IMG/VR virus record: IMGVR_UViG_3300049217_000290
Coordinates: 1-25,800 of that record
Strand: one strand, 5' to 3'
Length of the DNA stretch: 25,800 nucleotides
DNA from: a virus
Each line of letters opens with the position of its first letter. The first letter of the stretch is position 1. Under the pieces are notes generated by a model. It made no database searches, had not been told where the DNA came from, and saw only the letters and a list, made by a program, of their open reading frames with translations. Positions 8,739-24,102 of the stretch are shown here, one piece after another. The translations under genes and the position numbers were made by a program.

Positions 8739-9593
8739 TCAAATCACTGTCCCCGGCGGAATCGAATCAGGAGACGACAGCATGGGCGTATAAGGATAGG
8801 GCGTGACCGAAAGCCCCTTCGGATCTCGGAACGAACGGTCTCCCCATTTCTGTATTTTGCTAAACTCGCTGTCTGGGCCCTTTTCATAATTGCCTTTCCC
8901 ATATTTTTCGTCCAGTAGTCGCTGGGCAAAATCCTTGCCGGATTCGCCCACGCGCGGGCGCTGGCCTTCGGCCCAGCTCGGCGGTCCTTTTGCGCCTTCC
9001 TTGCCGCCGACGCGCGGTATCGTTTCCTTGAACTGCTCGACGATGCCATCTTCGGGAACGATGATAGGAGGCCTTGCCAACAGGAACTCTTGTGCCAGCA
9101 CGACATTCCCGTCGCGGCTTCCCGCACTGCCACTGTCCCCCGAGTTCGTTGCGGAAGACGGCGCCGGCGATGCGCGGGCTCCGGTTGTCCAGCGGCCGCG
9201 CTCATCACGTGGCTCATCCGGATCGAAGCCTTTAAGCAAACGATTGGCCTCAGCGAGGCGCTGGAACGCAGCCGGATCGTCGACCGGCGGCAGACCCAAA
9301 TGCACGGCCGCGATGGCGGCACGCGGAAGATCGCCGGCGTCGAGTGCGCGGGCCACGGCGCCGAGCCCGTTGGACAGCGCGGCGGCGGGGCATTCGCCAT
9401 AGGCCGCTTCCATAAGCAGCGCGATCTCGATCTCCGGCCGGAGGTGAGCGCGACCGTGGCCTCCCTTGCGGAGCTGGACGGCGATGAGCGGTGTTCCATC
9501 GCCGAGAAAGAAGCCCTCCAGCGTGACATAGGCTTCACCATTTGCCGCGTCGGGCATGCCGAGGCGAACCGTGCGGGCGAACGGCTGATGCAT
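8739..9593 (-). CDS. Polymorphic toxin B: shared N-terminal domain plus a toxin-type C-terminus
   Basis: A 284-residue protein. Residues 1-139 are nearly the same as in the toxin at 12263-13282 (both begin MHQPFARTVRLGMP and both contain RDxRGRWTTG at about 129-138). Then the sequence diverges: a low-complexity Ser/Gly/Ala linker to about 165, a region around PPIIVPEDGIVEQF, and a C-terminal domain from about 196. That domain contains SWAEGQRPRVGESGKDFAQRL, DEKYGKGNYEKG and SEFSKIQKWGDRSF, a pattern I associate with C-terminal domains of polymorphic toxins. I cannot name its enzymatic activity. The DUF7336 gene just downstream is the likely antidote. Upstream lies a copied 3' end of the tail completion gene (9680-9769), which marks this gene as a duplicate of the other toxin locus. 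Confidence 0.72.
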   Translation of the reverse strand: MHQPFARTVRLGMPDAANGEAYVTLEGFFLGDGTPLIAVQLRKGGHGRAHLRPEIEIALLMEAAYGECPAAALSNGLGAVARALDAGDLPRAAIAAVHLGLPPVDDPAAFQRLAEANRLLKGFDPDEPRDERGRWTTGARASPAPSSATNSGDSGSAGSRDGNVVLAQEFLLARPPIIVPEDGIVEQFKETIPRVGGKEGAKGPPSWAEGQRPRVGESGKDFAQRLLDEKYGKGNYEKGPDSEFSKIQKWGDRSFRDPKGLSVTPYPYTPMLSSPDSIPPGTVI

Positions 9594-9679
9594 GCGCGGA
9601 CCTTATGTCGATTGTCGCAAGAAGCGGGTGCGGGCGAAGGAATCCGGCGCCGGGGAAGCGCCGGCGAGACGTTGGAGAC

Positions 9680-9769
9680 CTATGGAATCAGGATCGCGAC
9701 GGGAATGACGGCGACGGAGCGGCCGTTGGCGTCGAGGCCTACGTAAGATTCAACGTTGCCTTCGATCCA
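9680..9769 (-). pseudogene. Copied 3' end of the tail completion gene
   Basis: The frame encodes WIEGNVESYVGLDANGRS and then VAVIPVAILIP before TAG at 9680. This matches the last 29 residues of the tail completion protein at 13493-13942 (WIEGNVEYYEGLDTNGRS...VAVISVAILIP) with only five changes. Nothing resembling the rest of that gene is upstream. The fragment precedes toxin B just as the intact gene precedes toxin A, so it is a scar of a segmental duplication that copied the 3' end of the phage gene along with the toxin gene. Confidence 0.85.
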
Positions 9770-9833
9770 GTCCCGACGCGGATGCGTGCATCCAGCCTGG
9801 CGGCTTGGAGCGGCGGCTTCAGGATAGAGAACA

Positions 9834-10301
9834 TTACGGTTGCGATTGGTCTGAAGTGCCGCCCTTCCAAATCTCGTCCGAGTCAAGCCACGTGGGATAT
9901 TTGAGGAGGAAAGAATAAAAGTCCGGCGCTATCAGCAAGACGTGCTGAGGCTCCATGCCGATGAAGGGCACCGCCACAATCGGCATTCCCTCTTTCCGCA
10001 CGTCGAACGCAAATGCCTCGCCCCCGCCGTCAGAACCAAACACCAACAGACCCGGCATATATTCCGCAACCTTGTAAGCATCGTTCAGCTTGGTAATTTC
10101 TTCGACGCGCCACAAGCTGATATAGAAATGGTCGTCGACAAAGCCGTTGCCGCCATTCGCATACATAAGAAACGCAACATACTCGACCGGCAGGGGGCGA
10201 CCATATTCCTCTTCGAACAGCCGAATGTCTGACAGATTTGCGGGCGGGTTCCCGTTAAATTTCTCCAGCAATCGCGCGAAGTTCCATTCGTTTGAGGTCA
10301 T
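9834..10301 (-). CDS. SMI1/KNR4 immunity protein, copy 3 (divergent)
   Basis: A 155-residue SUKH-family (SMI1/KNR4) protein. Motifs: IRLFEEEYGRPLPVEYVAFLMYANGG at the N-terminal half, ISLWRVEEI, LLVFGSDGGGEAFAFD and PIVAVPFIGM. SUKH proteins neutralise diverse nuclease toxins by direct binding. The frame is open up to 10376. I start it at ATG 10301 (MTSNEWNF), which aligns with the starts of the two other copies (MTSAQW). The ATG overlaps a TGA in the toxin frame (ATGA), as in the intact toxin A/immunity pair. It is roughly half identical to the other two copies and has an extra C-terminal tail. No intact toxin gene is directly upstream, so it now appears to be an orphan immunity gene. Confidence 0.85.
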   Translation of the reverse strand: MTSNEWNFARLLEKFNGNPPANLSDIRLFEEEYGRPLPVEYVAFLMYANGGNGFVDDHFYISLWRVEEITKLNDAYKVAEYMPGLLVFGSDGGGEAFAFDVRKEGMPIVAVPFIGMEPQHVLLIAPDFYSFLLKYPTWLDSDEIWKGGTSDQSQP

Positions 10302-10376
10302 TGAAGCAATCTCTTTTAGGGCCGCCCACCATGGCTGTATCACCCAGTGCTTGAACGGTTCAGGATTCGCCACCAT
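10298..10376 (-). pseudogene. Relic of an HNH toxin 3' end
   Basis: The sequence just before immunity copy 3 resembles the end of toxin A. Both have TGGTGGGCG followed about 23 nt later by CAATGA. The translation PFKHW...PWWAALKEIA resembles toxin A's HRPFTTWWATLQ. The frame leading to the overlapped TGA is shifted by one base and broken by TAA. I read it as the tail of a lost toxin gene whose antidote was kept. Confidence 0.55.
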
Positions 10377-10671
10377 TCCGAGTGCCCTTCGTAGCGCGTC
10401 GCCATGGCGAGGTTAGAGCCTCGCGCCAGGCACACCATCCCAAAGGCAGGTCCCAGAGCTCTTCGACGCTAGGGTCCAGCTCCACGATCTCGCGCAGACC
10501 GACGACGGCAGCATCGCTCTCTTTCGGAGGTCCAGATGCATTGGTGTGAAACTGCCATCCACCGTCCCATGCATCGTGCGAAACATAGGCAATCCAATCC
10601 CGGCCGCTGACAATTCCTCGGATCGCAATCACCGCTACGTTGGGAGGATCTTGGAACTTCCAATCTGCCAT
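10360..10671 (-). CDS. Small DUF2185-like protein, possible immunity protein
   Basis: A 103-residue acidic protein starting at ATG 10671. Visible features are VAVIAIRGIVSGRDWIAYVSHD, then GGWQFHTN, and LREIVELDPSVEELWDLPLGWCAWRE. The pattern of a Gly-Trp-x-Phe strand followed by 'LDPSV.EL..LPLGW' is like DUF2185 (Imm33-type) proteins, some of which are immunity proteins of polymorphic toxin loci. The location between two SMI1/KNR4 genes supports that role. Its 3' end overlaps the toxin relic at 10298-10376. The family call comes from memory of the pattern only. Confidence 0.55.
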   Translation of the reverse strand: MADWKFQDPPNVAVIAIRGIVSGRDWIAYVSHDAWDGGWQFHTNASGPPKESDAAVVGLREIVELDPSVEELWDLPLGWCAWREALTSPWRRATKGTRNGGES

Positions 10672-10905
10672 GTATCAATCCACTGGTTTGATCTTAATGG
10701 CTCTTGATCTGGCACCAACGAGATGCTCCGCAAAATCCAGATGCTTCGCTCCGTCCGAGATTCTCGAGGTCTAGTCATCAATCACTGCGGTATCTTCAGG
10801 TCGAACTCGCGCGCGATCTGCTCCGCGTGTGCATGCCGCTTTCCAGCAGCCGGAGGCGCATCGGCGTGAGGCCCCACATATTGCCCACTAACGTCGCAGC
10901 GTAGG

Positions 10906-11331
10906 TTAAGGGCCCGAAAAATCCCACTTGGACCATACCACGAGGAAAGAGTAAAAGTTCGATGCCATGGGACGTTCGTCCTCAATGGCGATATAATCCA
11001 CCATTACAACCGGCATTTCGTTCACTCGCATATTGAATGCAAATGCCTCCCCGCCCCCATCAGAACCAAAAGCCAGCAGGTGAGGCGCAAATTCATCGAA
11101 GCCACAACTTTTGTTGGCCTCAAGAATTTCTTCCAACGGCCACAGGCTAATATAACCATTGTCGCCCACCCAACCTTCGCCCCCGTTTGCATAGAGCAGA
11201 AAGGCGGTGTAGTCGGCTGACAGCGGTCGACCTAACGTCATTTCAAATTGCCGGATGTCCGAGATGCTCGCTGGCGCATTTTTGTCAAACTTTTCCAGCA
11301 ATTGTTCAAATTTCCATTGAGCCGAAGTCAT
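10906..11331 (-). CDS. SMI1/KNR4 immunity protein, copy 2
   Basis: A 141-residue SUKH-family protein, near-identical in design to copy 1 at 11841-12266: same length, same start (MTSAQW), same end (FYSFLVVWSKWDFSGP), differing at roughly 25 positions. Conserved motifs are IRQFEMTLGRPLSADYTAFLLYANGGEGW, LLAFGSDGGGEAFAF and the terminal tryptophans. Differences cluster near residues 101-125 (VMVDYIAIEDE against LMVPFIGMEHE), a region that could set toxin specificity. The 30 bp upstream repeat the end of the toxin A gene, including the overlapping ATGA. It is a recent duplicate of copy 1 that has lost its toxin. Confidence 0.88.
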   Translation of the reverse strand: MTSAQWKFEQLLEKFDKNAPASISDIRQFEMTLGRPLSADYTAFLLYANGGEGWVGDNGYISLWPLEEILEANKSCGFDEFAPHLLAFGSDGGGEAFAFNMRVNEMPVVMVDYIAIEDERPMASNFYSFLVVWSKWDFSGP

Positions 11332-11357
11332 TGCACCAACCTCGTTAACGTCCCCAA
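11328..11357 (-). pseudogene. Relic of a toxin A 3' end upstream of immunity copy 2
   Basis: In the toxin frame these bases encode LGTLTRLVQ followed by TGA. Toxin A ends WATLQRLLQ and TGA. At the DNA level almost all of about 30 bases match 12263-12292. The TGA overlaps the immunity ATG as ATGA. Further upstream the similarity ends, so only the tail of the toxin gene came with the duplicated immunity gene, or the rest was deleted. Confidence 0.65.
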
Positions 11358-11397
11358 CTGCTGCGCACGCCTCCTGAAATCAAACGCTGGGGCGGTT

Positions 11398-11811
11398 TTA
11401 TCCGGCGTTGAACAGATCGTGAAGCATATCGTCCTCGGCAGAGTTAAGCGGTTGCGACAAGCCGCCCCCCACATACCGAAGCTCCAATGCGCCGCCTAGC
11501 CGGCCATCTTCGATGGCGCGAACACCATCAAGCACACAGAAAAAACCGAACACTGCTTTGTCGACTGCGGCTTTGACGGTCAAGGCTAAGAGTCACTTCT
11601 GATCAGCGTCAAGCGTCCGGTACCACTCTGCGCGGACGACTAAATCTGCAGCAGGTTTTCGCTCGGGCGAATGCTCCATCGTCCCGAGTGTGTCCGCGGC
11701 AGCGCTATCACGAACAACTTCCTTTATAACGTGAACGAATTGCTGACGATCTACACCTACCTCGACAGCATTTCCGACAACTGTCGTCACATCGGCTCGA
11801 AGCCCTCTCAC
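11398..11811 (-). pseudogene. Small protein gene interrupted by an in-frame stop
   Basis: Two short open segments lie in the same frame, 11593-11811 (72 codons from GTG) and 11398-11583 (61 codons). A single TGA at 11593-11595 and three codons separate them. Read through, they give one protein of about 137 residues: an N-terminal helical part (VGVDRQQFVHVIKEVVRDSA), AEWYRTLDADQ at the junction, then AVDKAVFGFFCVLDGVRAIED, LELRYV and EDDMLHDLFNAG. The continuity AEWYRTLDADQ/LLALTVKAAVDKAVFGFF looks like one domain. I therefore call a nonsense mutation. I do not recognise the family with certainty. Its place between two immunity copies suggests a decayed immunity or accessory gene. Confidence 0.6.
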
Positions 11812-11840
11812 ACGTTATCGCTCACGCCGCTGCATATGGG

Positions 11841-12266
11841 CTAGGGGCCCGAAAAATCCCACTTGGACCATACCACAAGGAAGGAGTAAAAGTTCGCCGC
11901 CATGGGACGTTCGTGCTCCATGCCTATAAAAGGCACCATTAAAATCGGCATTCCATTCACTCGCATATCGAAAGCAAATGCCTCCCCGCCCCCATCAGAA
12001 GCAAAAGCCAGCAGGCCAGGCGCAAATTCGTCGAAACCGTAGCCTTTGTTGGCCTCAAGAATTTCTTCCAACCGCCACAGGCGAATATAACCATTGTCGC
12101 CTACCCAACCTTCGCCCCCGTTTGCATAGAGCAGAAAGGCGGTGTAGTCGGCCGGCAGCGATCGACCTAACGTCATTTCAAATTGTCGAATGTCCGAGAT
12201 TCTTGCCGGCGCGTTTCGTTGAAACTTTTCCAGCAATGGTGCGAAATTCCATTGAGCCGAAGTCAT
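11841..12266 (-). CDS. SMI1/KNR4 immunity protein, copy 1 (partner of toxin A)
   Basis: A 141-residue SUKH-family protein starting at ATG 12266, which overlaps the toxin A stop as ATGA. That coupling is the strongest sign that this is the cognate antidote for the HNH toxin. Motifs: FAPLLEKFQ, IRQFEMTLGRSLPADYTAFLLYANGGEGW, LLAFASDGGGEAFAF, PILMVPFIGMEHE and FYSFLVVWSKWDFSGP. The frame stays open to 12296, but the extra N-terminal residues there are antiparallel coding of the toxin end and I leave them out. SUKH proteins act in the cytoplasm by binding the toxin domain. Copy 2 at 10906-11331 is its near twin. Confidence 0.88.
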   Translation of the reverse strand: MTSAQWNFAPLLEKFQRNAPARISDIRQFEMTLGRSLPADYTAFLLYANGGEGWVGDNGYIRLWRLEEILEANKGYGFDEFAPGLLAFASDGGGEAFAFDMRVNGMPILMVPFIGMEHERPMAANFYSFLVVWSKWDFSGP

Positions 12267-13282
12267 TGCAACAACCTCTGTAACGTCGCCCACCATGTCG
12301 TAAACGGGCGGTGTTCGGACGGTGCCATGGGAATTTTGTTCGCCGGGTCAACAGGATCTCCTCCAAGTTTAATTGGATGGACATCATGAATATCTTGTCC
12401 CTCAAGCGATGGATCGGCGCGATGCAGTTTGCGGTTCGCGTTGTCAGCCGCGTCCCGCGCCTCAGTGTACTCCGACCCCTCCAAAATACGAAATGGACCA
12501 TCTGGCCTTGGGACACCCTCGGGATAGCCGCTCCAGTCCGATATTGAAAATGAACCTTCGCTATATGGTGCTGCTGCGGTTGCCGGAGGGGGCGATATCG
12601 GATTGGGGGCGGAAGCCGCCGCTAATCCGCCACCGACGAAAGGGCCAGCACTCCCGGGAGCGAGCCCAGGTTTAATTTGTTCGATATGAACGTTTCCATG
12701 CTCAGCGTCTTCTATTTCGCTGGTCTGACCGGCTCGACGCCTTGCTTCGTACGCAGGATCTGATGGCTGGTCGCTTTCGCTTGCTTCCGCGGTCCCGATG
12801 AAGTTGAAGCGATCCCAGAAGCCGGGACCGGTTGACGAGGTCTGGATGACTGGCGCAGTCGTTCCCGTCGTCCAGCGGCCGCGGCCGTCGCGCGGCTCGT
12901 TCGGGTCAAAGCCGCCCTTAAGCAGGCGATTGGCTTCGGCGAGGCGACGGAGCGTCGCCGCGTCGGCGATCGGCGGAAGACGCAAATGCACCGCCGCGAT
13001 GGCGGCACGCGGAAGATCGCCGGCGTCGAGTGCGCGGGCCACGGCGCCGAGTCCGTTGGATAGCGCGGCGGCGTCGGGGCATTCGCCATAGGCCGCTTCC
13101 AGGAGCAGCGCGATCTCGATCTCCGACCGCACTTTTGCGCGGCTGCTGCCGTTCTTGGCGAGATCGACAGTGACGAGCGCGCTGCCGTCGCCGAGAAAGA
13201 AGCCCTCCGGCGTGACATAGGCCTCGCCGCTCGCCGCACCGGGCATGCCGAGGCGAACCGTGCGGGCGAACGGCTGATGCAT
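12263..13282 (-). CDS. Polymorphic toxin A with C-terminal HNH nuclease domain
   Basis: A 339-residue modular toxin. Residues 1-139 are the N-terminal domain shared with toxin B (MHQPFARTVRLGMP at the start, IEIALLLEAAYGECP, an Ala-rich helix pair, and RDGRGRWTTG at the end), probably a targeting or packaging part. Residues 140-262 are a Pro/Ala/Ser/Gly-rich linker. Residues 263-339 are an HNH-type nuclease: IHDVHPIKLGGDPVDPANKI and SEHRPFTTWW, with candidate metal/catalytic residues His299, His302, Asn315 and His324. Such nucleases cut DNA in target cells. The SMI1/KNR4 gene overlaps its stop. It lies 210 nt downstream of the tail completion gene, in a slot where phages normally go directly to the tail tube. 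No signal peptide or secretion motif is seen. Confidence 0.8.
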   Translation of the reverse strand: MHQPFARTVRLGMPGAASGEAYVTPEGFFLGDGSALVTVDLAKNGSSRAKVRSEIEIALLLEAAYGECPDAAALSNGLGAVARALDAGDLPRAAIAAVHLRLPPIADAATLRRLAEANRLLKGGFDPNEPRDGRGRWTTGTTAPVIQTSSTGPGFWDRFNFIGTAEASESDQPSDPAYEARRRAGQTSEIEDAEHGNVHIEQIKPGLAPGSAGPFVGGGLAAASAPNPISPPPATAAAPYSEGSFSISDWSGYPEGVPRPDGPFRILEGSEYTEARDAADNANRKLHRADPSLEGQDIHDVHPIKLGGDPVDPANKIPMAPSEHRPFTTWWATLQRLLQ

Positions 13283-15628: not shown

Positions 15629-17149
15629 TCAACCGTTGGCGATGTTGGTGATGACGCCGAGGCTCGGCGGGAAATAGTGCTGCAGGATCTCGTCGGCATA
15701 GACGCCGTATTCGTAGGCGCGGCGGATGAGCGGCCATTCGATCTGGTAATAATCCTGCCGCGTGCGGATCTGCGCGACATTGGCCACGTTCGACAAGGGA
15801 TAGGGCAGCTTCGAGGTGAAGAACAGGATAGTGCCGGCCGGCATATTCGGATGCACCTCGACGGGAACCACCTGTCCGCCCGCCATGCTGAAACGATTCA
15901 GGTATTGCCGGATCATCACGCCGCCGGCCAGCATGCCGTCCTTGATCTCAGCGGTGTAGCGCAGGTTCGAGGTGGAGCCGCCGGCCAGCATCTTCTTCGA
16001 GATGTTGAGCGCTTCCTGGCTGTTCACCAGGATGAGGTCCGGCGACAGGCGGTAATTGTCCCAGAAGGATTTCAGCGCCGCGTCGATCTCGACGATGCCG
16101 CCCTCGCCGTCTGATGTGAGCGGCGTGCCGGTGCCGACGGTGCCGGTGGGCTGCGACGCGAAATAAGCGTTCGAGCCGGATTTCAGCGCCTGGGTCAAGA
16201 GTCCATCGAACACCAGCGTGTTCGCGCTGTTGTCGGCGCTGCCGAGCGAGGCGGCGGTCTGCGTGCCGGTCGCCGTGGCGGTGATCACCAGGCTGTTGAT
16301 GAAGGTGATGGCGCCGAGCACTTCGGAGCCCGCGGTGCCCCAGAACCAGGCATAGCCCATGGCGCCCTTCACCGCGGCAACCGAGGCGCCGCAGCTGCCG
16401 TTCGGACCGGTGATGGAGGCGGTGGCGTTGGTGGATTGCTTGGCCGCGCCGCCGCCGAACACGTCGCTGTTGCTGTAGGGGCCGGCCGAGGCGCGGGTGA
16501 TCTGGCCCTGGATGCCGCCGGCGACGGAACCGTTGATCACGCCGTCGAGGGACAGCGCGACGCAGATGACGGAGAGCGTCTGCGTGGCGAGCGAGCCGCC
16601 GCTGGTCGAGGCTGCCAAGGTCGGCGTCGGCGTGGTGCCGAGCGCGAGCGAATTGTTGCCGCCGAGGATGAGTTGCTCCTCGCCAAGCATCACCGCTTCC
16701 AGGAGGGCCCGCGCCGCTACCGCGCGGATGTCGTCGAAGCCCATGCCGGCGTATTGCGCCTCGAAGTCGACGCTGTCTTCCAGGCCGATGCCCTTGTAGA
16801 CGGCGATATAGTCCTGGGTCGAGATGGCCATGACGCCGCCGCGATTGCCGCCGGACACGCCGAGGCGCACGCTCGAGGTATTCACGCCGGTGATGGCGCG
16901 CCAGTTGGCCTGGATGCCGCCCTTGCCGGAGACGCGGGGGATGCGGTTGCGGAGCGGCGTCAGCACGGGATAGAGGAACTTGGCACCGGTTTCCAAGTCG
17001 TAATAGGTGAGGCCGGAGGTGGCGCTGGCGTTCTGCGCGAAGGTGCTCTTGGCCAGCACGCCGGCGAGGCGGGGATCGTCGATCGGCGACTTGTAGGCCG
17101 CCTTGAAGGCATCGAGCGTCTTCTGCACTGCGTTGGGATCAAAGGTCAT
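15629..17149 (-). CDS. HK97-fold major capsid protein with an internal insertion domain
   Basis: A 506-residue shell protein. The N-terminal part (FLYPVLTPLRNRIPRVSGKGG) and the C-terminal part (SPDLILVNSQEALNISKKML, YPLSNVANVAQIRTRQDYYQIEWPL) belong to an HK97-fold group in siphophages. The region of about residues 172-310 is rich in Gly, Ser, Thr and Ala with beta-type phrases (VICVALSLDGV, GAMGYAWFWGTAGSE, AITFINSLVITATATG). This looks like an Ig/FN3-like surface domain and explains the size above the roughly 300-390 residues of a simple shell protein. The expected upstream gene, the protease/scaffold, is 5.9 kb away on the other side of the ubiquitin-like island. TGGAG sits 9 nt before the ATG. 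A hairpin follows the stop. Confidence 0.88.
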   Translation of the reverse strand: MTFDPNAVQKTLDAFKAAYKSPIDDPRLAGVLAKSTFAQNASATSGLTYYDLETGAKFLYPVLTPLRNRIPRVSGKGGIQANWRAITGVNTSSVRLGVSGGNRGGVMAISTQDYIAVYKGIGLEDSVDFEAQYAGMGFDDIRAVAARALLEAVMLGEEQLILGGNNSLALGTTPTPTLAASTSGGSLATQTLSVICVALSLDGVINGSVAGGIQGQITRASAGPYSNSDVFGGGAAKQSTNATASITGPNGSCGASVAAVKGAMGYAWFWGTAGSEVLGAITFINSLVITATATGTQTAASLGSADNSANTLVFDGLLTQALKSGSNAYFASQPTGTVGTGTPLTSDGEGGIVEIDAALKSFWDNYRLSPDLILVNSQEALNISKKMLAGGSTSNLRYTAEIKDGMLAGGVMIRQYLNRFSMAGGQVVPVEVHPNMPAGTILFFTSKLPYPLSNVANVAQIRTRQDYYQIEWPLIRRAYEYGVYADEILQHYFPPSLGVITNIANG

Positions 17150-17188
17150 CTAAGGGCTCCATCAAGGGAGGGGCGGCGTCTCCTGCGA

Positions 17189-17205
17189 CAATCGCTTCGC
17201 GATTG
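17189..17205. other. Hairpin in the leader of the capsid gene
   Basis: CAATCGC (17189-17195) pairs with GCGATTG (17199-17205) around TTC, about 40 nt upstream of the capsid ATG. With the 17-bp repeat at 17264-17280 it is the only structure I see in the 150-nt gap between capsid and the ImmA gene. This gap must hold either a capsid promoter or a read-through path from the ImmA gene. Confidence 0.35.
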
Positions 17206-17263
17206 CGCCAACGACGCGGCCGATTGCCTTGCCCAAGGGCCTGCAGGTGGATTGCCCGGCCCG

Positions 17264-17280
17264 GGCGAACAGGCCGGCGA
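17264..17280. repeat. 17-bp direct repeat, left copy, bracketing the ubiquitin-like module
   Basis: GGCGAACAGGCCGGCGA occurs here and, identically, at 20496-20512. The bases on either side differ, so the match is exactly 17 bp. The two copies enclose the ImmA, XRE, ubiquitin-like, JAMM and E1 genes and nothing else. This is consistent with an insertion, excision or recombination boundary. Confidence 0.7.
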
Positions 17281-17299
17281 AAACAAGAGTAGAGATTAG

Positions 17300-17884
17300 C
17301 TATCTACGCGCGCTAGCACGCGGTGAGCGCAAGCCGAGCTGGTAGTCAATTCCCGTCATCCGCACGCGCCACCTTAGTAGATCGGGACTTACGGCGAAGT
17401 GTGTGGCCGCATCGTCGTCTGACATTGACATTCGCCGCATCCATAGGAGCGCAGGCCGCGGCAGCAAAAGCGCTGCTCCGAGCCATGCGGCTTCGTCTTC
17501 CTGTTCTTGGTTGAAGGCGCTCGGCACAAGATGTCCATCGGATGTTTGCACAGCCGAAGCTAACTCATGACCCAACATAATGTGCGCTAGCTCATGCATA
17601 ACGACACTATTCTGGCGTCGCGCAGATTGCTCAGAATTCACAACAATTAAATTGTGGATGCCTATGCGTAGCGTGAAGCCGGACCATTCCTTCGCCCCTG
17701 CTCCACGCAATTGTCGAAGGTCCGCGGTGGACAAGCCTGCAACGTCTTCTGTAAGCCAGATAGTTACGTCGAGGTCTTTCGCGACGTCACTTCCCAAGAG
17801 GGGGGCCGTGTCGCCGAGCCCCATCCTTCGGCGCAACTCTACGGCGCGCCGTTCGCTTTGAGATTTGAACCCCCGCTTGAGCAC
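17300..17884 (-). CDS. ImmA/IrrE-family metallopeptidase
   Basis: A 194-residue zinc peptidase of the ImmA/IrrE (COG2856) family, which cleaves a partner XRE repressor on a signal. The zinc-binding motif HELAH is at residues 97-101, preceded by a beta strand (HNLIVVN at about 77). The third ligand region is EQEDEAAWLGAALLLPR at about 127-143. The C-terminal FAVSPDLLRWRVRMTG is a typical small helical tail. The GTG start at 17884 shares one base with the TAG of the XRE gene, so the two are translationally coupled. This is the standard derepression pair of mobile elements. Here it probably controls the divergent ubiquitin-like operon. It also lies upstream of, and in line with, the capsid gene. 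Confidence 0.88.
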   Translation of the reverse strand: MLKRGFKSQSERRAVELRRRMGLGDTAPLLGSDVAKDLDVTIWLTEDVAGLSTADLRQLRGAGAKEWSGFTLRIGIHNLIVVNSEQSARRQNSVVMHELAHIMLGHELASAVQTSDGHLVPSAFNQEQEDEAAWLGAALLLPRPALLWMRRMSMSDDDAATHFAVSPDLLRWRVRMTGIDYQLGLRSPRASARR

Positions 17885-18246
17885 TATTGGTGACCATCAG
17901 CTTTGATCTTTTCCGCAAACTGCCTATACGCGGCCATGATCAAGTTTCCCAGTGCCTTGGACGTCCCTGGCGTCACCGCCTTGTTTTTCTTGAAAACGAC
18001 TTGCACGTGGGGTCGATCCGTTGTCTGTGCGCCGAGCGACGTGCCCAAGTAACGTGCCGGCTCAACTCCGAGCCATACACATACTTTTTTCAAAGTCTCC
18101 AGGTCGGGGATTCTACCGTTCTCGATGCGTGAAAGGGTGGCTGGGCTGATCTCAATCTCCGCGGCGGCCGCCCGGACTCCCATGCTGCCGCGTTTCTGTT
18201 GGAGCAGCTGCCCAAGTTTCTTCGGCGTGAGTTGATCGCTTTCCAT
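17884..18246 (-). CDS. XRE-family transcriptional regulator
   Basis: A 120-residue repressor-type protein with an N-terminal HTH_3 domain at about residues 8-66: LGQLLQQKRGSMGVRAAAAEIEISPATLSRIENGRIPDLETLKKVCVWLGVEP. The recognition helix is in ISPATLSRIENG. The remaining residues form a basic tail (VQVVFKKNKAVTPGTSKALGNLIMAAYRQFAEKI), perhaps for dimerisation or for cleavage by the peptidase encoded next. It is transcribed away from the ubiquitin-like operon and separated from it by a 199-nt region with palindromes, the expected place for its operators. Confidence 0.88.
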   Translation of the reverse strand: MESDQLTPKKLGQLLQQKRGSMGVRAAAAEIEISPATLSRIENGRIPDLETLKKVCVWLGVEPARYLGTSLGAQTTDRPHVQVVFKKNKAVTPGTSKALGNLIMAAYRQFAEKIKADGHQ

Positions 18247-18445
18247 AGCGTCTCATAGAAGAAATAAGTGTTGCATACGTGAGGCTCCTGTGTTTCTCTA
18301 GAGAGACGGTCGAGAGAATCATGCCCGGAGTGCTTGGTCAAGTGATTCTCGCGAAAAGGGCAATCAGGAGTCCTCAACCAGGGTTTACGTCGGCACGGCA
18401 GGTAACGGGCAGGCGCCTATTGGCTAGCAACGTAGGAGTAGCTTC
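18247..18445. promoter_or_regulatory. Divergent control region between XRE and the ubiquitin-like operon
   Basis: The 199 nt between the two start codons must hold promoters for both directions. Visible elements are the perfect palindrome TCTCTAGAGA (18295-18304), and an inverted repeat GAGAATCA (18314-18321) with TGATTCTC (18343-18350) spaced by 21 nt. Both are plausible XRE operators. AGGAG at 18434-18438 is the ribosome binding site of the ubiquitin-like gene, 7 nt before its ATG. I could not pick a convincing -35/-10 pair. Confidence 0.55.
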
Positions 18446-18718
18446 ATGGAAGCGGCACAGCACAACGACTACGAAGTTGAGATCAACTACAACGGCGTCG
18501 TGAAACCGTTCAAGGTCACGGTGAGCGAGCTGGTGAAAGCTTTGCTGGAAAAAGCAATTCGAGTGTTCGGCATCAGCCAGAACATGCATTTGCTAGCGCT
18601 GTTTACCCCGAGCAACGAAGAGCTCGCGGACAGCAAGACCATTGGCAGCGCTGGCGTGCATCCGAACGAGCGCCTGAATTTGCGCCCCAGTGCAATGCGT
18701 GGTGGTTGTGGCCAGTGA
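18446..18718 (+). CDS. Bacterial ubiquitin-like protein (DUF2604-type)
   Basis: A 90-residue beta-grasp protein. The strand pair YEVEINYNGVVKPFKVT (residues 9-25), the long helix VSELVKALLEKAIRVFGI (26-43), the strand HLLALFTP and the final strand ERLNLRP follow the ubiquitin plan. It ends MRGGCGQ, so a Gly-Gly pair at 86-87 is followed by three residues that must be removed to free a ubiquitin-type diglycine tail. Next to a JAMM peptidase and an E1-like enzyme, this should be the modifier conjugated to target proteins. It starts the operon with a good ribosome binding site (AGGAG, 7 nt spacing), and its stop overlaps the next gene. The DUF2604 name is from pattern memory. The ubiquitin-like fold is supported by context and secondary-structure layout. 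Confidence 0.82.
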   Translation: MEAAQHNDYEVEINYNGVVKPFKVTVSELVKALLEKAIRVFGISQNMHLLALFTPSNEELADSKTIGSAGVHPNERLNLRPSAMRGGCGQ

Positions 18719-19155
18719 TCTACCACGTACCCCGCGTCGTGCTGTCGGAAACGTTCAAGATGTTCCGCCTATGTGGCGCGGGTGAGCGCGAATGCGTGAC
18801 GTTTTGGCTAAGCAAGTGGTCGACCCCTTATGCCATTAACGAAGTGGTCCATCCAAATCACTCGGGACATCAATACGGATTCGAGCTAGATCCAAACTGG
18901 CTGAACGATTTTTGGAATCGCCTAGCAGATCGCAGAGAAGGAGTCCGTTGTCAAATTCATACGCATCCGAAAACGGCGTTTCACTCCCCGACCGATGATG
19001 CTTGGCCTATCGTTCACACGTCAGGGTTTCTGTCATTAGTAATCCCGGATTTCGGAATGAAGTGCGTTGGATTTGAGCGCGCCTTTCTTGCCGAGCTCAA
19101 TCCTCATGGTCAATTCTGCGAATTGCCGATTCATCAGCGGCTGGTGATCGTATGA
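18715..19155 (+). CDS. JAMM/JAB-domain metallo-isopeptidase (prokaryotic Mov34-like)
   Basis: A 146-residue JAB-domain protein. The JAMM zinc site is visible: Glu43 in NEVVHPNH, His82 and His84 in IHTHP, Ser91 and Asp94 in HSPTDD. Later TSGFLSLVIPDFG is a typical prokaryotic JAB strand. The spacing HxHPx5SxxD is one residue shorter than in Rpn11 or RadC. In this setting the enzyme would trim the ubiquitin-like precursor after Gly87 and/or remove it from targets. The frame opens at a TTG at 18706, but GTG at 18715 overlaps the previous stop (GTGA) and gives a sensible N-terminus, so I use it. Its own stop overlaps the E1 start (ATGA). Confidence 0.88.
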   Translation: MIYHVPRVVLSETFKMFRLCGAGERECVTFWLSKWSTPYAINEVVHPNHSGHQYGFELDPNWLNDFWNRLADRREGVRCQIHTHPKTAFHSPTDDAWPIVHTSGFLSLVIPDFGMKCVGFERAFLAELNPHGQFCELPIHQRLVIV

Positions 19156-20453
19156 GCCCTCGGGAAGCCTTGGATCGAACGCTCCTACTTATGAGGAACG
19201 ACCTCCGCGCGGAAATCTCGGATGAAGTCTTGTTACGGACGCTCCTAAATACGAAAGTCGCGTTGATCGCCGACTTAGCAAACGTGAAGACGCACTCGGC
19301 ACAATGCGCATATGTCACTGCAGCCATAATGTGTATGCGCTCAGGGGCTACCGTCTATCTCGCGGCGCCGAACGTAGAGCTGTTGGGACCGCAGCCGCCG
19401 CTATCGCAATCCAAACTGATCGACGCCCTTCTCGATGTCGGCAACAAAATAATCCCATCTCGCCATTTTCACATCGAGCCCCCAAGGGTGAAGCTTGATC
19501 TTGTCATATTGCTTGGCGACACGACATGGACGGGCGAGGCAGACTTAGTTGTCAGCATCAATGCAAGCGATTGGAGCTGCCAGCTTAGTGAAGCGGGTGC
19601 CGCCGCTGCATGGGCTGGCAACGAATGGCCGTTCGGCGCGCTGGGTGCCGCAGCTCTCGCCGCTGGAGAAGCGTTCAAGGTAGCTATGCGCAAACTTCGC
19701 GATTGGCGCAAGCACGACATATTTGATGATTTTTTTGCGTTGACGACCTACGCACGTCTCCAACTTGCCTCTGATTTGACCCAAAAGCGGACTGCGCTCG
19801 ATCGTGCAGATTTTGTCAGCGGAGGAGCGATAGCGAACGCGGCGATTTTTGCATTAGCCCGTCTCCCGGCAGCACGCGGCGTCGTGCGAGTGATTGAACC
19901 CGATCTAAATGGCCTCTCGAACGCGAATCGCTACCCGTTGCTGACCCTAGATCGGCTCAATCTCGGTAAAGCGCATGATTTAGCCACCCGAAACCTTGGT
20001 AATCTTAAAGTGCGCGGCCTGCCTTTGCGGTTCGACGCGACTAGCCACAGGCGTATAGGTACTTTCGCACCGTCAGTCCTCGTGGGCGTGGATCATATCC
20101 CGAGCCGTTGGGACGTGCAGCGGACTCTTCCAAAATGGCTGGGAATAGGGGCAACTTCGCACTATGGCGTCATGATTACTGTGCATGAGGCAGGCTTGCC
20201 CTGCGCGACATGCGCCCACCCTATTGATGATCCGGGCACGGACCTAATCCCCACAGTCAATTTCATATCGTTCTGGGCCGGTCTTTTGTTAGCAGTTCGA
20301 TACGTCCGGCACATGAGCGGCATTCGTGAAGATCCAGCTGAGCAACTGATCTTGTTTCATCCGCTCCGTCCAGAACGGCCGCCACAGCGGGGGCCAGTGC
20401 CATTTCGTCCTGGCTGCGTGTGGACTGAAGATCGTGCTGTTGCATCGCGCTGA
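19152..20453 (+). CDS. E1-like ubiquitin-activating enzyme (two ThiF-type domains)
   Basis: A 433-residue protein with two Rossmann modules. The N-terminal one (about residues 33-180) keeps the ThiF layout (TKVALIADLANVKTHSA... and EWPFGALGAAALAAGEAFKVAM) but lacks the active-site set, so it looks like a pseudo-enzyme half. The C-terminal one (about 219-385) has a variant glycine loop, SGGAIANA at 223-230. It keeps the adenylation residues: Asp251 in EPD, Asn259 and Arg260 in SNANR, Lys273, and Asp314 in VGVDHIPSR. Cys351 and Cys354 (LPCATCAHP) are candidates for a thioester or metal role. It should adenylate the diglycine end of the small protein encoded by the first gene. No E2-like protein is encoded in the operon. 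The start overlaps the JAMM stop (ATGA). Confidence 0.85.
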   Translation: MSPREALDRTLLLMRNDLRAEISDEVLLRTLLNTKVALIADLANVKTHSAQCAYVTAAIMCMRSGATVYLAAPNVELLGPQPPLSQSKLIDALLDVGNKIIPSRHFHIEPPRVKLDLVILLGDTTWTGEADLVVSINASDWSCQLSEAGAAAAWAGNEWPFGALGAAALAAGEAFKVAMRKLRDWRKHDIFDDFFALTTYARLQLASDLTQKRTALDRADFVSGGAIANAAIFALARLPAARGVVRVIEPDLNGLSNANRYPLLTLDRLNLGKAHDLATRNLGNLKVRGLPLRFDATSHRRIGTFAPSVLVGVDHIPSRWDVQRTLPKWLGIGATSHYGVMITVHEAGLPCATCAHPIDDPGTDLIPTVNFISFWAGLLLAVRYVRHMSGIREDPAEQLILFHPLRPERPPQRGPVPFRPGCVWTEDRAVASR

Positions 20454-20495
20454 AGCTGGGTTTGGACTCCCGTCTCGACGCTTGATAAAGGCGCA

Positions 20496-20512
20496 GGCGA
20501 ACAGGCCGGCGA
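20496..20512. repeat. 17-bp direct repeat, right copy
   Basis: Identical to 17264-17280 and located 43 nt after the E1 stop. Between 20454 and 20643 I see no convincing gene, only this repeat and some very short frames. Confidence 0.7.
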
Positions 20513-20643
20513 CGGAATAGGTATCTCGCGAGTGGGATATGAAGGCCTACGCCATTCTGCAACCGAGAGAAAGGGCGGAATGACTCCTGACCCCGACTCG
20601 CCTTATTCTAGGAGTTGCAAGCTAACCCAGGGCGAACACCATC

Positions 20644-20916
20644 ATGAGAGAAGTCTTTTTCCTCGATTGGATCACTCCCGAGGACTATGAGGCCATCCGG
20701 GGTCTCCAAGGTTCGGACCTGCCCGACACCTATGATGAATGGTTCAAACTTCATACGACGAAGAAGATTGAACGCGGACACGTCGGCGATACCGTCGAAC
20801 TGGTCCGAGTCTATCCGCACGAGTTCATTCGGTATTGTCGAGGAGCAGGCGCAGCTGCCACCGGCCACAGTTTGAACATCTTCGCCCAAGGAAGAGGGGC
20901 CGGAAAGATATACTAA
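20644..20916 (+). CDS. Small protein of unknown function
   Basis: A 90-residue protein that I do not recognise. It begins MREVFFLDWITPEDYEAIRGL, has an acidic, aromatic middle (DTYDEWFKLHTTKKIERGHVGDTVELVRVYPHEFIRYC) and a Gly/Ala-rich end. No membrane segment or signal peptide is visible. It lies 190 nt after the E1 gene on the same strand but outside the 17-bp repeats, so it may not belong to the ubiquitin-like system. The ribosome binding site is poor (CAGGGCG 9-15 nt upstream). Confidence 0.6.
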   Translation: MREVFFLDWITPEDYEAIRGLQGSDLPDTYDEWFKLHTTKKIERGHVGDTVELVRVYPHEFIRYCRGAGAAATGHSLNIFAQGRGAGKIY

Positions 20917-21045
20917 GTAAGCACAACCCGGCAGACAGCAATTTGCTCAATTCGGGTTCCCGCGCAATCTGTCGGAGGGCGTTACAAAGTGGTGACATGC
21001 GCGGTAGTTCACTCGACAGCGCCAGCCAGACTAGGAGCGACGGCC

Positions 21046-21423
21046 GTGCCGAAGAAATTCCGACTCATTGGACTGCCAAGTGGCGCTGTGAATGCCGAAA
21101 AGCAGGAAATCGATTTTTCGCTTGCTGTCAGTGATGGGCGGCCGCTGGGGTTTATCGCAAAGATCGGGGTTGCCGAGCAGATCATTTCTGGCCTCGGCCG
21201 AATGGTTCGCGATTTGCGCCAGCCAAAGCCGCAGATGACTGCCGCAGAGGATGTTGCCGAATATCTCGTGCAGAGAGATGCTTTTGGGGGGCCAGTTCTG
21301 CTTCGGTTCGTGACTCCACATGGCGTCCCCTACACATTTGCCCTGCCAGCGGTGGCTGCAAGCGATATCGCTGAGCGATTGAAAACTGAAAGTCAAAAGG
21401 AGCGACCGGTGGGAAGGGCGTAG
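21046..21423 (+). CDS. Protein of unknown function
   Basis: A 125-residue protein starting at GTG 21046, chosen because AGGAG (21033-21037) lies 8 nt upstream. The frame is open to 20989, but the extra residues look random. Motifs: FRLIGLPSGAVNAEKQEIDFSLAVSDG, LGFIAKIGVAEQIISGLGRMVRDLR, and AEYLVQRDAFGGPVLLRFVTPHGVPYTFALP. It reads as a small soluble alpha/beta protein. No family or role is recognised. Confidence 0.6.
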   Translation: MPKKFRLIGLPSGAVNAEKQEIDFSLAVSDGRPLGFIAKIGVAEQIISGLGRMVRDLRQPKPQMTAAEDVAEYLVQRDAFGGPVLLRFVTPHGVPYTFALPAVAASDIAERLKTESQKERPVGRA

Positions 21424-21464
21424 TCATTCTCGATGAGCTCACAGGGCAATCAAGGAGATAACTG

Positions 21465-21533
21465 ATGATCTGTGCCTGCTGCCCGCACCTGCCCCATCAA
21501 ACACGAACGGCGGATGCTAAATTTCTGGCGTAG
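21465..21533 (+). CDS. Possible 22-residue leader peptide
   Basis: A 23-codon frame (MICACCPHLPHQTRT...) has the best ribosome binding site in the area, AAGGAGAT at 21452-21459, 5-6 nt before its ATG. It overlaps the start region of the membrane protein gene in another frame and ends after that gene's internal ATG at 21514. It might couple translation of the membrane protein or may simply be fortuitous. Confidence 0.25.
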   Translation: MICACCPHLPHQTRTADAKFLA

Positions 21534-22317
21534 ATGGGGCCCGGCTCTATTCGTTGGAGCGCTCTGCATCTCCTTCCCGGCAACAATGTGGTTGGCCGTG
21601 GAGTGTTCATCGATATCCGTCCCTGAGCAACCACCCACAAACCAGCAACACGCAGGCACTTCCGATCAAGAACATCCAGCCACTCGTGACGTGTCGTTGC
21701 CTTTTCGCATCGGAAAATTCCTCGACGATCACAACGGGACTGTTAGCGCCGTTGCCACTGTCGCCATTGCGGGATTTACCCTCGTCCTGATTTTTGTCAG
21801 CCGCACCCAGGCTCGACTCATGCGCGAAGGACTTGTCACTGGTGGCCGCGCATTCGTCTTCCTCGAAGATTTCGACACGGAGTTCACGACCAAATTTCGC
21901 GGCGGAGGATATCCACCCAATATCAGCGGAATGACCATCAAGCCCCGGTGGAAAAATGGTGGCAGGACGCCCACCAAAAACTTGATTGTCAAGGTGGCCT
22001 GCGACTCGATCGATGGCGAACTGGCCGCCGACTTCACCTTTCCATATGCTGATAACGCGCTGCAGACAATGATCGGTCCAGATGCAACGGAATGGAGTAA
22101 CCCCGTTCAAATCAGCGAATTTGACGCTAACAAGGCACTCGACAAAGAGAGGAATATCTACATTTGGGGCCGCGCAGATTACCTGGATGTCTTCGACCCT
22201 ACATCCCCGCGCTTCACCCAGTTTTGTTACCGCATCCATTTCCGCCGCAGCGAAGGCCACGTCAGAACTCAATTCATCGCCTATGGCGACTACAATAAGT
22301 CCGACCAAGACCGCTAG
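21472..22317 (+). CDS. Two-helix membrane protein of unknown function
   Basis: Up to 281 residues. Two hydrophobic helices are visible: about residues 23-42 (WGPALFVGALCISFPATMWL) and 91-109 (VSAVATVAIAGFTLVLIFV). A short Pro/Gln/Ser-rich loop separates them, and a soluble C-terminal domain of about 170 residues follows. That domain has GGRAFVFLEDF, ISGMTIKPRWKNGGRTPTKNLIVKV and YIWGRADYLDVF, an Ig-like beta pattern often seen after two N-terminal helices in membrane proteins of genomic islands. The GTG at 21472 gives the longest form. ATG 21514 (MLNFWRRWG), just before the first helix, is an equally good start. Function unknown; it may be passenger DNA of the island. Confidence 0.68.
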   Translation: MPAARTCPIKHERRMLNFWRRWGPALFVGALCISFPATMWLAVECSSISVPEQPPTNQQHAGTSDQEHPATRDVSLPFRIGKFLDDHNGTVSAVATVAIAGFTLVLIFVSRTQARLMREGLVTGGRAFVFLEDFDTEFTTKFRGGGYPPNISGMTIKPRWKNGGRTPTKNLIVKVACDSIDGELAADFTFPYADNALQTMIGPDATEWSNPVQISEFDANKALDKERNIYIWGRADYLDVFDPTSPRFTQFCYRIHFRRSEGHVRTQFIAYGDYNKSDQDR

Positions 22318-22452
22318 AAAACGACGCGCCCACTCGCATTTACGTTTCGACGCCAATAATCGAGTACTGAGGGCTGGGCAATCCACCGTCTCGTCAAGTC
22401 TTGTGCAGTCATGCATATAGTCGTCCCGACGGTGTCACCAGGGAGAATTGCC

Positions 22453-22968
22453 ATGAAGATCGAATCACTGCGACGCTTGCCGAGGCTTGTCGCTTTGTTG
22501 TTGGCTACCGGACTCTGCGGCGTGCCCGCCAAGGCGGACGGATTGCTGGTCACGCACCGCTTGCCGGCAGCGCTCGCCAGTCAGATCGCCAGCGAGGTTG
22601 TCGCTGCCTGCGCCAAGCAGGGCTATACCGAGACCGCCGTGGTGGTCGACGTGGACGGCGTGCGCCAGGCCGTGCTGCGCGGCGACCGGGCCGGCAGCCA
22701 TACGCTCGACAGCGCCAACGACAAGGCCTATACGGCCGCCTCGTTCAAGAACGACACCTCCGCCCTGGTCGAACGGTCGAAGACGGTGCCGGGCTTCGCC
22801 GCGCTGTTCACGCAGTTGCCGCATCTCATCCTGTTCGGCGGCGGCGTGGTCATCAAGCTGGGCGACGAGGTGGTGGGCGCCATCGGCGCCTCCGGCGCGC
22901 CCGGCGCCGACCTGGACGATGCCTGCGCCCGCGCCGGCCTCGACAAGGTGCGCGACCAGCTCAAGTAG
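22453..22968 (+). CDS. Secreted GlcG/HbpS-family protein
   Basis: A 171-residue GlcG/HbpS (heme-binding/heme-degrading fold) protein with an N-terminal signal peptide: basic residues in MKIESLRRLPR, a hydrophobic core LVALLLATGLCGV, and a probable cut after AKA (about residue 28). The family body is typical: LASQIASEVVAACAKQGYTETAVVVDVDGVRQAVLRGD, DKAYTAASFKNDT, LFGGGVVIKLGDEVVGAIGASGAPG and DDACARAGL. The frame is open to 22411, but ATG 22453 begins the signal peptide and follows GGGAGA at a good distance. Its codon use is much more GC-rich than that of the preceding genes. Family members occur as periplasmic proteins of varied role. It is an unusual companion for phage head genes. Confidence 0.82.
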   Translation: MKIESLRRLPRLVALLLATGLCGVPAKADGLLVTHRLPAALASQIASEVVAACAKQGYTETAVVVDVDGVRQAVLRGDRAGSHTLDSANDKAYTAASFKNDTSALVERSKTVPGFAALFTQLPHLILFGGGVVIKLGDEVVGAIGASGAPGADLDDACARAGLDKVRDQLK

Positions 22969-22989
22969 CCACACTGGTACCTGCGGAAG

Positions 22990-23009
22990 ACCGCGCAGGC
23001 GTGCGCGGT
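22990..23009. terminator. Hairpin between converging glcG-like and protease genes
   Basis: ACCGCGCA (22990-22997) pairs with TGCGCGGT (23002-23009) around a 4-nt loop. It lies 21 nt after the GlcG-like gene and 13 nt after the protease gene stop on the other strand, so it could end transcripts from both sides. No T-run is present, so confidence is moderate. Confidence 0.5.
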
Positions 23010-23022
23010 AGGCCGCGCAGGA

Positions 23023-24102
23023 CTAGCCGGGCTGGCCGAGCTTCAGGGGTTGGCGCTGGGCCATTTTGATGGCGGCGGCGGCGATCAGGTCGGGGTTGCT
23101 CTTCACCAGTTCGTCGAGCATGCCGGCGGCGGCGCGGGCGTCGTCCGCAGCTTTGTCGACGACGCGGTAGCTGTCGGTCCTGGCGGGGCCGCCCGGCATC
23201 GGCTGGTTCTCCAGCTTTTCGATGCGGGCGCGGAGCTCGTCGATCAAGGGCACCGCGGCGGTAACGGCCTCGCGCAAGCCGGCATTTTCCGCTGCGAGCT
23301 TGGCGAGTTCGCCCGAGGCGACCTGCTCGATCGTGTCTGTCGTTGTTGCCTGCTGCGGCGGGCAGGTGGCGCCGGCTTCGCAGAGCAGGTCGTGGGCCTG
23401 CTGCAGGCGGGCCTGGTCGGCCGCCGAATTCCGCGCGCCGAGCTTTGCGAGGACCGGTTCGGCAGCTGCGGCAAGCAGCTCGGTGCGGGCCTGCTCGACG
23501 AAATTGTGCCATTTGCTGGCGGCACCGGCGCTCTTGGCCAGGGCCTGCGCCTTGGCGACCACGTCGGCGTTGCGCAGTGGCGCGGTCGGGCCGGCGCCTT
23601 TCGGCTTGAAGTGCCGCTTCTCCACCACGCCGTCGGCCTTGATCATGCTGAAGGTGGCGGTCGGCATGCAGGGATTGTCGACCAGGCTGACTTCTGCCGG
23701 CTCGGCGGTGTAGCGGGTGACGCCGGCATTGCCGGCATCCTTCCAGCGCTTCACGTATTTGCCGCCGATGGAGAAGCCGGTGTAGACGCCCTGCTCCACC
23801 TTGGCCCATTCGTCGTCGTCCACCACCTTGGCGCAGGCCTCGATGCGCCTGGCTTCGTCGTCGAAGGCGATCTCGGTCAGCTTGCCGGCGGCGACCTTGC
23901 CGTGCATGGCGCGGACATTGCCGACGCTGCGTCCGTCGGTGGCCTTGGCGACGGCGCCGGACCAGGCCTCGAACAGCGGCTTGGAGCTGGCGTAATCCAG
24001 GATCTCGTCGGACTTGTCGACCACCTCCTCGGCGATGGTGCCATAGACCAGTCGCTTGGCCGCATCGACCTTGGTGATCGGCAGGAAGAGATTCAATTGC
24101 AT
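23023..24102 (-). CDS. Phage prohead protease (XkdF-like) fused to scaffold
   Basis: A 359-residue capsid maturation protein. The N-terminal half is an XkdF-like serine protease: VRAMHGKVAAGK with His67, and VYTGFSIGGKY with Ser111. RYTAEPAEVSLVDNPC supplies the acidic residue around 137. The C-terminal half is a helical, alanine-rich scaffold with a coiled coil at about 255-300 (LAKLAAENAGLREAV, LIDELRARIEKLENQ). Such fusions direct procapsid assembly and then digest the scaffold. It begins 3 nt after the portal gene. The capsid gene expected next is displaced by the accessory island, so from here minus-strand transcription faces the plus-strand island genes. Confidence 0.88.
   Translation of the reverse strand: MQLNLFLPITKVDAAKRLVYGTIAEEVVDKSDEILDYASSKPLFEAWSGAVAKATDGRSVGNVRAMHGKVAAGKLTEIAFDDEARRIEACAKVVDDDEWAKVEQGVYTGFSIGGKYVKRWKDAGNAGVTRYTAEPAEVSLVDNPCMPTATFSMIKADGVVEKRHFKPKGAGPTAPLRNADVVAKAQALAKSAGAASKWHNFVEQARTELLAAAAEPVLAKLGARNSAADQARLQQAHDLLCEAGATCPPQQATTTDTIEQVASGELAKLAAENAGLREAVTAAVPLIDELRARIEKLENQPMPGGPARTDSYRVVDKAADDARAAAGMLDELVKSNPDLIAAAAIKMAQRQPLKLGQPG

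Follow-up and report, generated by a model that had tools for sequence, protein, structure and literature searches.

How could a ubiquitin-like modifier (UBL), a JAMM peptidase and an E1-like enzyme operate together without an E2, and why would a phage carry them? Conjugation of the ubiquitin type is usually taken to need thioesters formed on both an E1 and an E2. The question is raised by three genes in a 25.8-kb virus record (the window, meaning the whole stretch of DNA analysed here), which an original prediction, made from the letters alone, had described as a UBL conjugation operon related to the bacterial Bil systems.

Three overlapping genes related to Bil proteins

All three reading frames of the predicted operon (18446-20453) were found as placed, with overlaps of 4 nt each (GTGA and ATGA):

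18446-18718, plus strand: UBL, ATG start, 90 aa, one beta-grasp domain, C-terminus MRGG followed by CGQ; PADLOC BilA 1.8e-4
18715-19155, plus strand: JAMM/MPN+ metallopeptidase, BilC-like, GTG start, 146 aa; PADLOC BilC 4.6e-11
19152-20453, plus strand: E1-like adenylating enzyme, BilD-like, apparently without a CYS domain, ATG start, 433 aa; PADLOC BilD 8.2e-10

BilA, BilC and BilD are the nearest characterised relatives of the three products, and this, together with the matches to solved Bil structures (PDB 8tyz_A and 8tyx_B), bears out the proposed kinship with Bil (BilABCD, the bacterial ISG15-like system; 8tyz/8tz0 and 8tyx/8tyy), an antiviral system that acts against phage through conjugation of its UBL to the particle. 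The UBL, JAMM and E1 are homologous in the two systems and stand in the same relative order, A-C-D. The general Pfam matches of the trio all lie under curated cut-offs, so routine annotation would overlook it. A chance trio of reading frames was rejected on the PADLOC and PDB matches to Bil and on the same gene order in five other loci.

A beta-grasp fold for the first product had been set beforehand as a test of the prediction. The AF2 model (pLDDT 82.4; alignment of four sequences) has strands and helix in ubiquitin order. Structurally it comes nearest to SUMO, ISG15 and ubiquitin, with Foldseek E-values of about 4e-6 to 3e-5 and VIA Z scores of 12.8 for ISG15 and 12.1 for BilA (8tyx_A). The predicted fold is thus beta-grasp, and the prediction passes this test. 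The protein aligns to the last domain of three-domain homologues. Its chain ends in RGG-CGQ and those of five homologues in RGG, QGG (three) and KAG, with nothing beyond the final G. The CGQ tail of the window copy is predicted to be removed to leave GG. Most UBLs of the lineage described below already end at glycine, unlike those of Bil.

The JAMM product carries the complete set of BilC-type catalytic residues (E, HxH and SxxD) that had been noted: E26, H82, H84, S91 and D94 are invariant across the family alignment, and E26 aligns with E33 of BilC, at which the solved structure bears a mutation. BilC is also the single solved structure matched by sequence (8tyx_B, 6.7e-9; family profile 1.1e-19). 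The JAMM is retained where the UBL needs no trimming, and this speaks for conjugates that need cleavage.

For the E1, the single solved structure matched by sequence is BilD (8tyz_A, 1.2e-11; family profile 7.6e-19). The predicted adenylation site is present, and its residues N257, R260, K273 and D314, seen across 15 aligned E1s, are invariant in the family together with the C351/C354 pair, also when compared with an E2-type relative (L094).

The E2, the CYS domain and the E2-less relatives

The missing E2 by which the locus had been set apart from the four-gene Bil type is confirmed at the motif level, since CEHH is absent from the whole window. This motif occurs once in each of 9/9 E2-type loci and in 0/6 E2-less loci (the window and five relatives). 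The controls comprised two true Bil operons, L094 and L095 (UBL, E2, JAMM and a 519-aa E1, with the E2 matching BilB 8tyz_C at 2.8e-112), and seven plasmid Bil-type operons. On Rhizobium etli p42a, a four-gene Bil operon (L105, 3052-8082) is followed by TIR-domain and caspase-family genes. The E2 profile PF14455 gave no match in four genomes with the E2-less set or on the Rhizobium plasmid and matched both control genomes. It was used in place of the PADLOC BilB profile, which misses a proven BilB and was dropped as an E2 test; PF14461 (Prok-E2_B) matched nowhere, controls included, and is uninformative. A BilB-type E2, with CEHH and recognisable by PF14455, is thus missing from the set.

The difference from Bil extends into the E1 itself, a point that the original prediction had missed. 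The CYS domain of BilD is a helical domain of ~80 residues whose Cys417 reacts with the BilA adenylate (PMC11354881). BilD-type enzymes have an insert after CxxC, and the HMM alignment of the window E1 with 8tyz jumps from 345 to 436, so that Cys417 falls in the part absent from the window E1. In the alignment of 15 E1s, the stretch between CxxC and F371 is 16 residues long and free of Cys in all six E2-less enzymes, and in all eight E1s with an E2 encoded alongside it comprises 82-96 residues with exactly one Cys, which is aligned; a ninth insert-bearing E1 (L107) was excluded from this count, no annotated UBL, E2 or JAMM being adjacent. As far as these alignments tell, loss of the E2 and loss of the CYS domain go together in strict co-occurrence. 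The conclusion that the window E1 has no CYS domain with its catalytic Cys417 is drawn from sequence alignment because the AF2 model of this protein failed (pLDDT 46) and went unused. An enzyme of this kind, with no CYS domain, should not run the Bil thioester relay. Judged by the composition of its genes, with both the E2 and the CYS domain apparently lacking, the window set is not a Bil system.

The homologous loci were checked for an E2, and five further sets were found, all E2-less. The closest plasmid set, from tblastn on plasmids, belongs to Rhizobium beringeri (40.6% identity over 94% of the E1) and consists of a three-domain UBL (Multi_ubiq), a JAMM and an E1, with no E2. One genome-collection scan gave the same trio in Sphingomonas abaci, Novosphingobium album and Sphingomonas montanisoli, and the alignment shows the Sphingomonas UBLs to be three-domain proteins. 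A profile search of 398 Sphingomonadales genomes added a set with a one-domain UBL, JAMM and E1 (genome G380). The total is therefore the window and five sets, from a Rhizobium plasmid, two Sphingomonas, a Novosphingobium and another Sphingomonadales genome. In the E1 tree the six E2-less enzymes form one side of a branch with support 100/100, within which deep splits separate the window copy, G380 and the Rhizobium/Sphingomonas group; the tree was built without the CYS columns and without an outgroup, and ancestral state and loss are indistinguishable in it. The earlier distinction from Bil thus stands in a refined form, as a separate E1 clade in which the CYS domain is gone as well. The tree and alignments indicate that the lack of an E2 is an ancient trait common to the clade, not a peculiarity of this contig, and that the trio represents a sister lineage of Bil with neither E2 nor CYS domain. 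A recent local deletion of the E2 was rejected, the clade being old and consistent.

The E1 family is rare, with full-length members in two of the 398 Sphingomonadales genomes. Genome samples of the class and the phylum yielded, besides two true Bil operons, one further E1 fragment; no further members of the family were found when the order of those Bil-operon genomes was searched. No second phage-borne copy came from tblastn of the E1 and JAMM against phage records, nor from viral-contig scans with E1, JAMM and degenerate HxHP..SxxDD patterns, which are short and weak as a measure of rarity. The set of G380 (locus L090) has the same five-gene layout as the window, including two regulatory genes considered below, on a chromosomal contig where it adjoins a LepA-type GTPase gene; the neighbourhood, read by eye, has no phage genes nearby, and no genes of known defence effect adjoin the set.

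Two side observations concern these relatives. On the Rhizobium plasmid, a stretch of about 11 kb accommodates two ubiquitin-like sets (L081, 784-3132 and 8798-11287), one of Multi_ubiq, ThiF E1 and DUF6527 and one of E2-less multi-UBL, JAMM and E1, in surroundings that include a sigma factor, UvrD helicases and a PD-(D/E)XK nuclease; the Sphingomonas copies are flanked by genes of the same size in the same order. At L096 (7762-8067) lies a remnant, a C-terminal fragment of ~100 aa of the E1 family without UBL or JAMM.

Two rival readings meet their evidence here. The first holds that the set is what remains of a Bil operon, now inactive or degenerating. The window E1 keeps only three of the four C-terminal Cys (CPVGC reduced to GC), a loss that breaks up a Cys pair and may weaken the metal site, and a partnerless E1 fragment occurs in genome G637; but the three intact, tightly overlapping frames, the complete JAMM site, the conserved adenylation residues and the retention of all three genes by six sets in one clade make decay a very improbable account. 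The second supposes that the host supplies the E2 in trans, or that the phage set disturbs a Bil system of the host, the wrong modifier being charged or removed, as counter-defence or hijacking. The Bil-type JAMM and UBL, the location on a phage and the Bil operons of rhizobial plasmids would all fit. We nevertheless consider it improbable, given the PF14455 result in the four genomes, an E1 that has no CYS domain to pass the UBL to an E2, and the presence of the same module in chromosomes, a setting in which counter-defence would serve little purpose.

Phage surroundings and regulators

On its minus strand the window encodes portal, protease, coat and connector, the coat being identified by its major-capsid relatives. 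The operon sits, as originally described, inside the head region, flanked by the genes for head protease and coat:

17150-23022, no strand: putative cargo interval that separates the coat gene (15629-17149) from the head protease gene (23023-24102)

This protease-coat interval measures 5.9 kb here. Among 80 related phage contigs it could be measured in 71, at -168 to 1776 bp, and the module genes are missing from all 80. The GC content of the module is 0.555 versus about 66% in the head genes, its GC3 0.55-0.70 versus 0.86-0.89 in portal and coat, and the operon runs opposite to the head genes. Because it is absent from relatives, low in GC, on the opposite strand and provided with its own regulators, the module looks like cargo, and it was probably acquired recently; a misassembled contig, although conceivable, is not needed to explain its position. 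The same features bear on a further suggestion of the original prediction, that the set modifies the particles of its own phage, which would mean its head or tail during assembly. Apart from the two head genes that flank the set, nothing was found in favour of this, and we rank it as the least probable of the readings considered, since the 80 related contigs do without the set and its strand, foreign composition and regulators are its own. The nearest named phages infect Brevundimonas, which makes an alphaproteobacterial host probable.

The rest of the interval and other parts of the window hold further genes. Three more low-GC frames on the plus strand (20644-22317; 90, 144 and 281 aa), without family matches and the last with hydrophobic segments, are possible companions of the module. 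They are followed in the interval (22411-22968, plus) by a gene for an HbpS-like protein (haem-binding/GlcG type) with a signal-like N-terminus and a GC3 of 0.87, like phage genes. In the phage structural region (8739-13282, minus), the proteins encoded at 12263-13282 and 8739-9593 share the N-terminus MHQPFARTVRLGM and differ at their C-termini, and three SUKH/SMI1-KNR4-like genes lie between them; this looks like a polymorphic toxin-immunity cassette.

A pair of regulators on the minus strand (17300-18246), likewise missed at first, belongs to the same module and is divergent from the operon:

17300-17884, minus strand: ImmA/IrrE (M78) metallopeptidase with HELAH motif, CapP-like; PF06114 2.2e-14, PADLOC capP 7e-8
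17884-18246, minus strand: HTH repressor (Cro/C1 type) in a CapH-like position, divergent from the operon; Pfam HTH_3 3.1e-9
18247-18445, no strand: divergent intergenic region, candidate operators; short TTCTC/GAGAA palindromes at 18291-18321 and 18343-18357

Both have counterparts at L090: the ImmA proteins are 30% identical (E 8e-24), and the HTH protein in the same place is weakly related (E 4e-7). A divergent HTH and ImmA/IrrE pair of the same kind also accompanies some four-gene Bil operons (L100 and L101). CapP cleaves CapH on binding ssDNA, and CapH with CapP, or CapW, regulate immune operons, one of them being present in 219/544 Bub operons (PMC13373217). The window resembles CapH and CapP in having an HTH repressor and an M78 metallopeptidase next to an immune-type operon; it differs in that the similarity is distant, and repressor cleavage and ssDNA sensing are here only predicted. 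By this analogy the regulators support a damage-induced immune or stress role.

Proposed working of the module

Known systems offer partial parallels. The window set departs from Bil in lacking BilB and the ~80-residue CYS domain and in forming a separate clade. Archaeal SAMP, UbaA and HvJAMM1 likewise combine a UBL, one E1-like enzyme and a JAMM, which conjugate SAMP reversibly without an E2 (PMC4443979; PMC11354881); UbaA, however, is MoeB-like and serves sulfur transfer too, and the window E1 resembles BilD, carries an additional N-terminal half and has no sulfur genes around it. The Bub and polyUbl operons (Multi_ubiq; row 6e of Iyer 2006) share the three-domain UBL of the Rhizobium and Sphingomonas relatives and the immune-type regulators, but the polyUbl operons of Iyer 2006 encode a metal-binding protein and an E2-like domain that is inactive, whereas the present set has just UBL, JAMM and E1; E2-like parts are listed for operon types 6a-6e (Iyer 2006). 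Type II CBASS, defined by a CD-NTase and an E2-E1 fusion (Cap2), differs in both respects, no CD-NTase match and no E2 part being found in the interval.

We propose that DNA damage would lead the ImmA/IrrE peptidase to cleave the HTH repressor, as CapP does CapH, and so release the UBL-JAMM-E1 operon. The JAMM would then cut CGQ off the modifier to expose GG, as would be expected by analogy with BilC, a step required in this copy only, since its relatives end at G. With its conserved active-site residues, the E1 would adenylate the UBL glycine. Since both the thioester domain of the E1 and the E2 appear to be absent, the activated UBL could pass directly to an acceptor amine, without an E1/E2 thioester relay; the acceptor might be a target bound at the E1, the E1 itself or the UBL. 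An unrelated E2 or E3 may also act in trans. The JAMM would take the UBL off again, as its conservation where maturation is unneeded suggests, and the outcome would probably be to defend the lysogen from other phages, or else a response to damage stress.

The main rival is activation without conjugation to protein, in which the UBL would carry sulfur as a thiocarboxylate, or join a small molecule, and the JAMM would trim or release the carrier. A UBL, JAMM and E1 without an E2 do occur in sulfur-carrier pathways, the models being the QbsC/D/E-type siderophore and CysO/Mec+ pathways, and the lack of a catalytic Cys domain and of an E2 is shared with MoeB-type enzymes. Yet no ThiS/MoaD, rhodanese or biosynthetic genes were seen near the six sets, and the loci examined show none of the sulfur-carrier families (ThiF/ThiS, MoeB/MoaD, QbsCDE); in the window, ThiS/MoaD Pfam profiles gave no match and ThiF one at E 0.048 only, below cut-off. 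Among solved structures the profiles match Bil proteins only, not MoeB or ThiF, and the immune-type regulators and the rare, patchy distribution also argue against this reading, which we regard as unlikely.

Our preferred reading, which we hold to be slightly on the probable side, is that the trio belongs to an E2-less, CYS-less sister lineage of Bil and acts as a damage-inducible module for E2-independent, reversible UBL conjugation, carried as cargo and probably defensive. Its more specific form is tentative: that a BilD-like E1, with neither thioester domain nor E2, would pass an adenylated modifier straight to an amine within a phage-carried, damage-induced defence module, a minimal ubiquitin pathway that would be either the simple ancestor of Bil or its stripped descendant.

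A phage thus carries as cargo a relative of Bil that is missing both thioester steps but keeps the JAMM. Whether a BilD-type E1 can conjugate alone is directly testable with this set, and the lineage bears on the order of origin of these systems, that is, on whether simple adenylate chemistry preceded the thioester relay or followed it.
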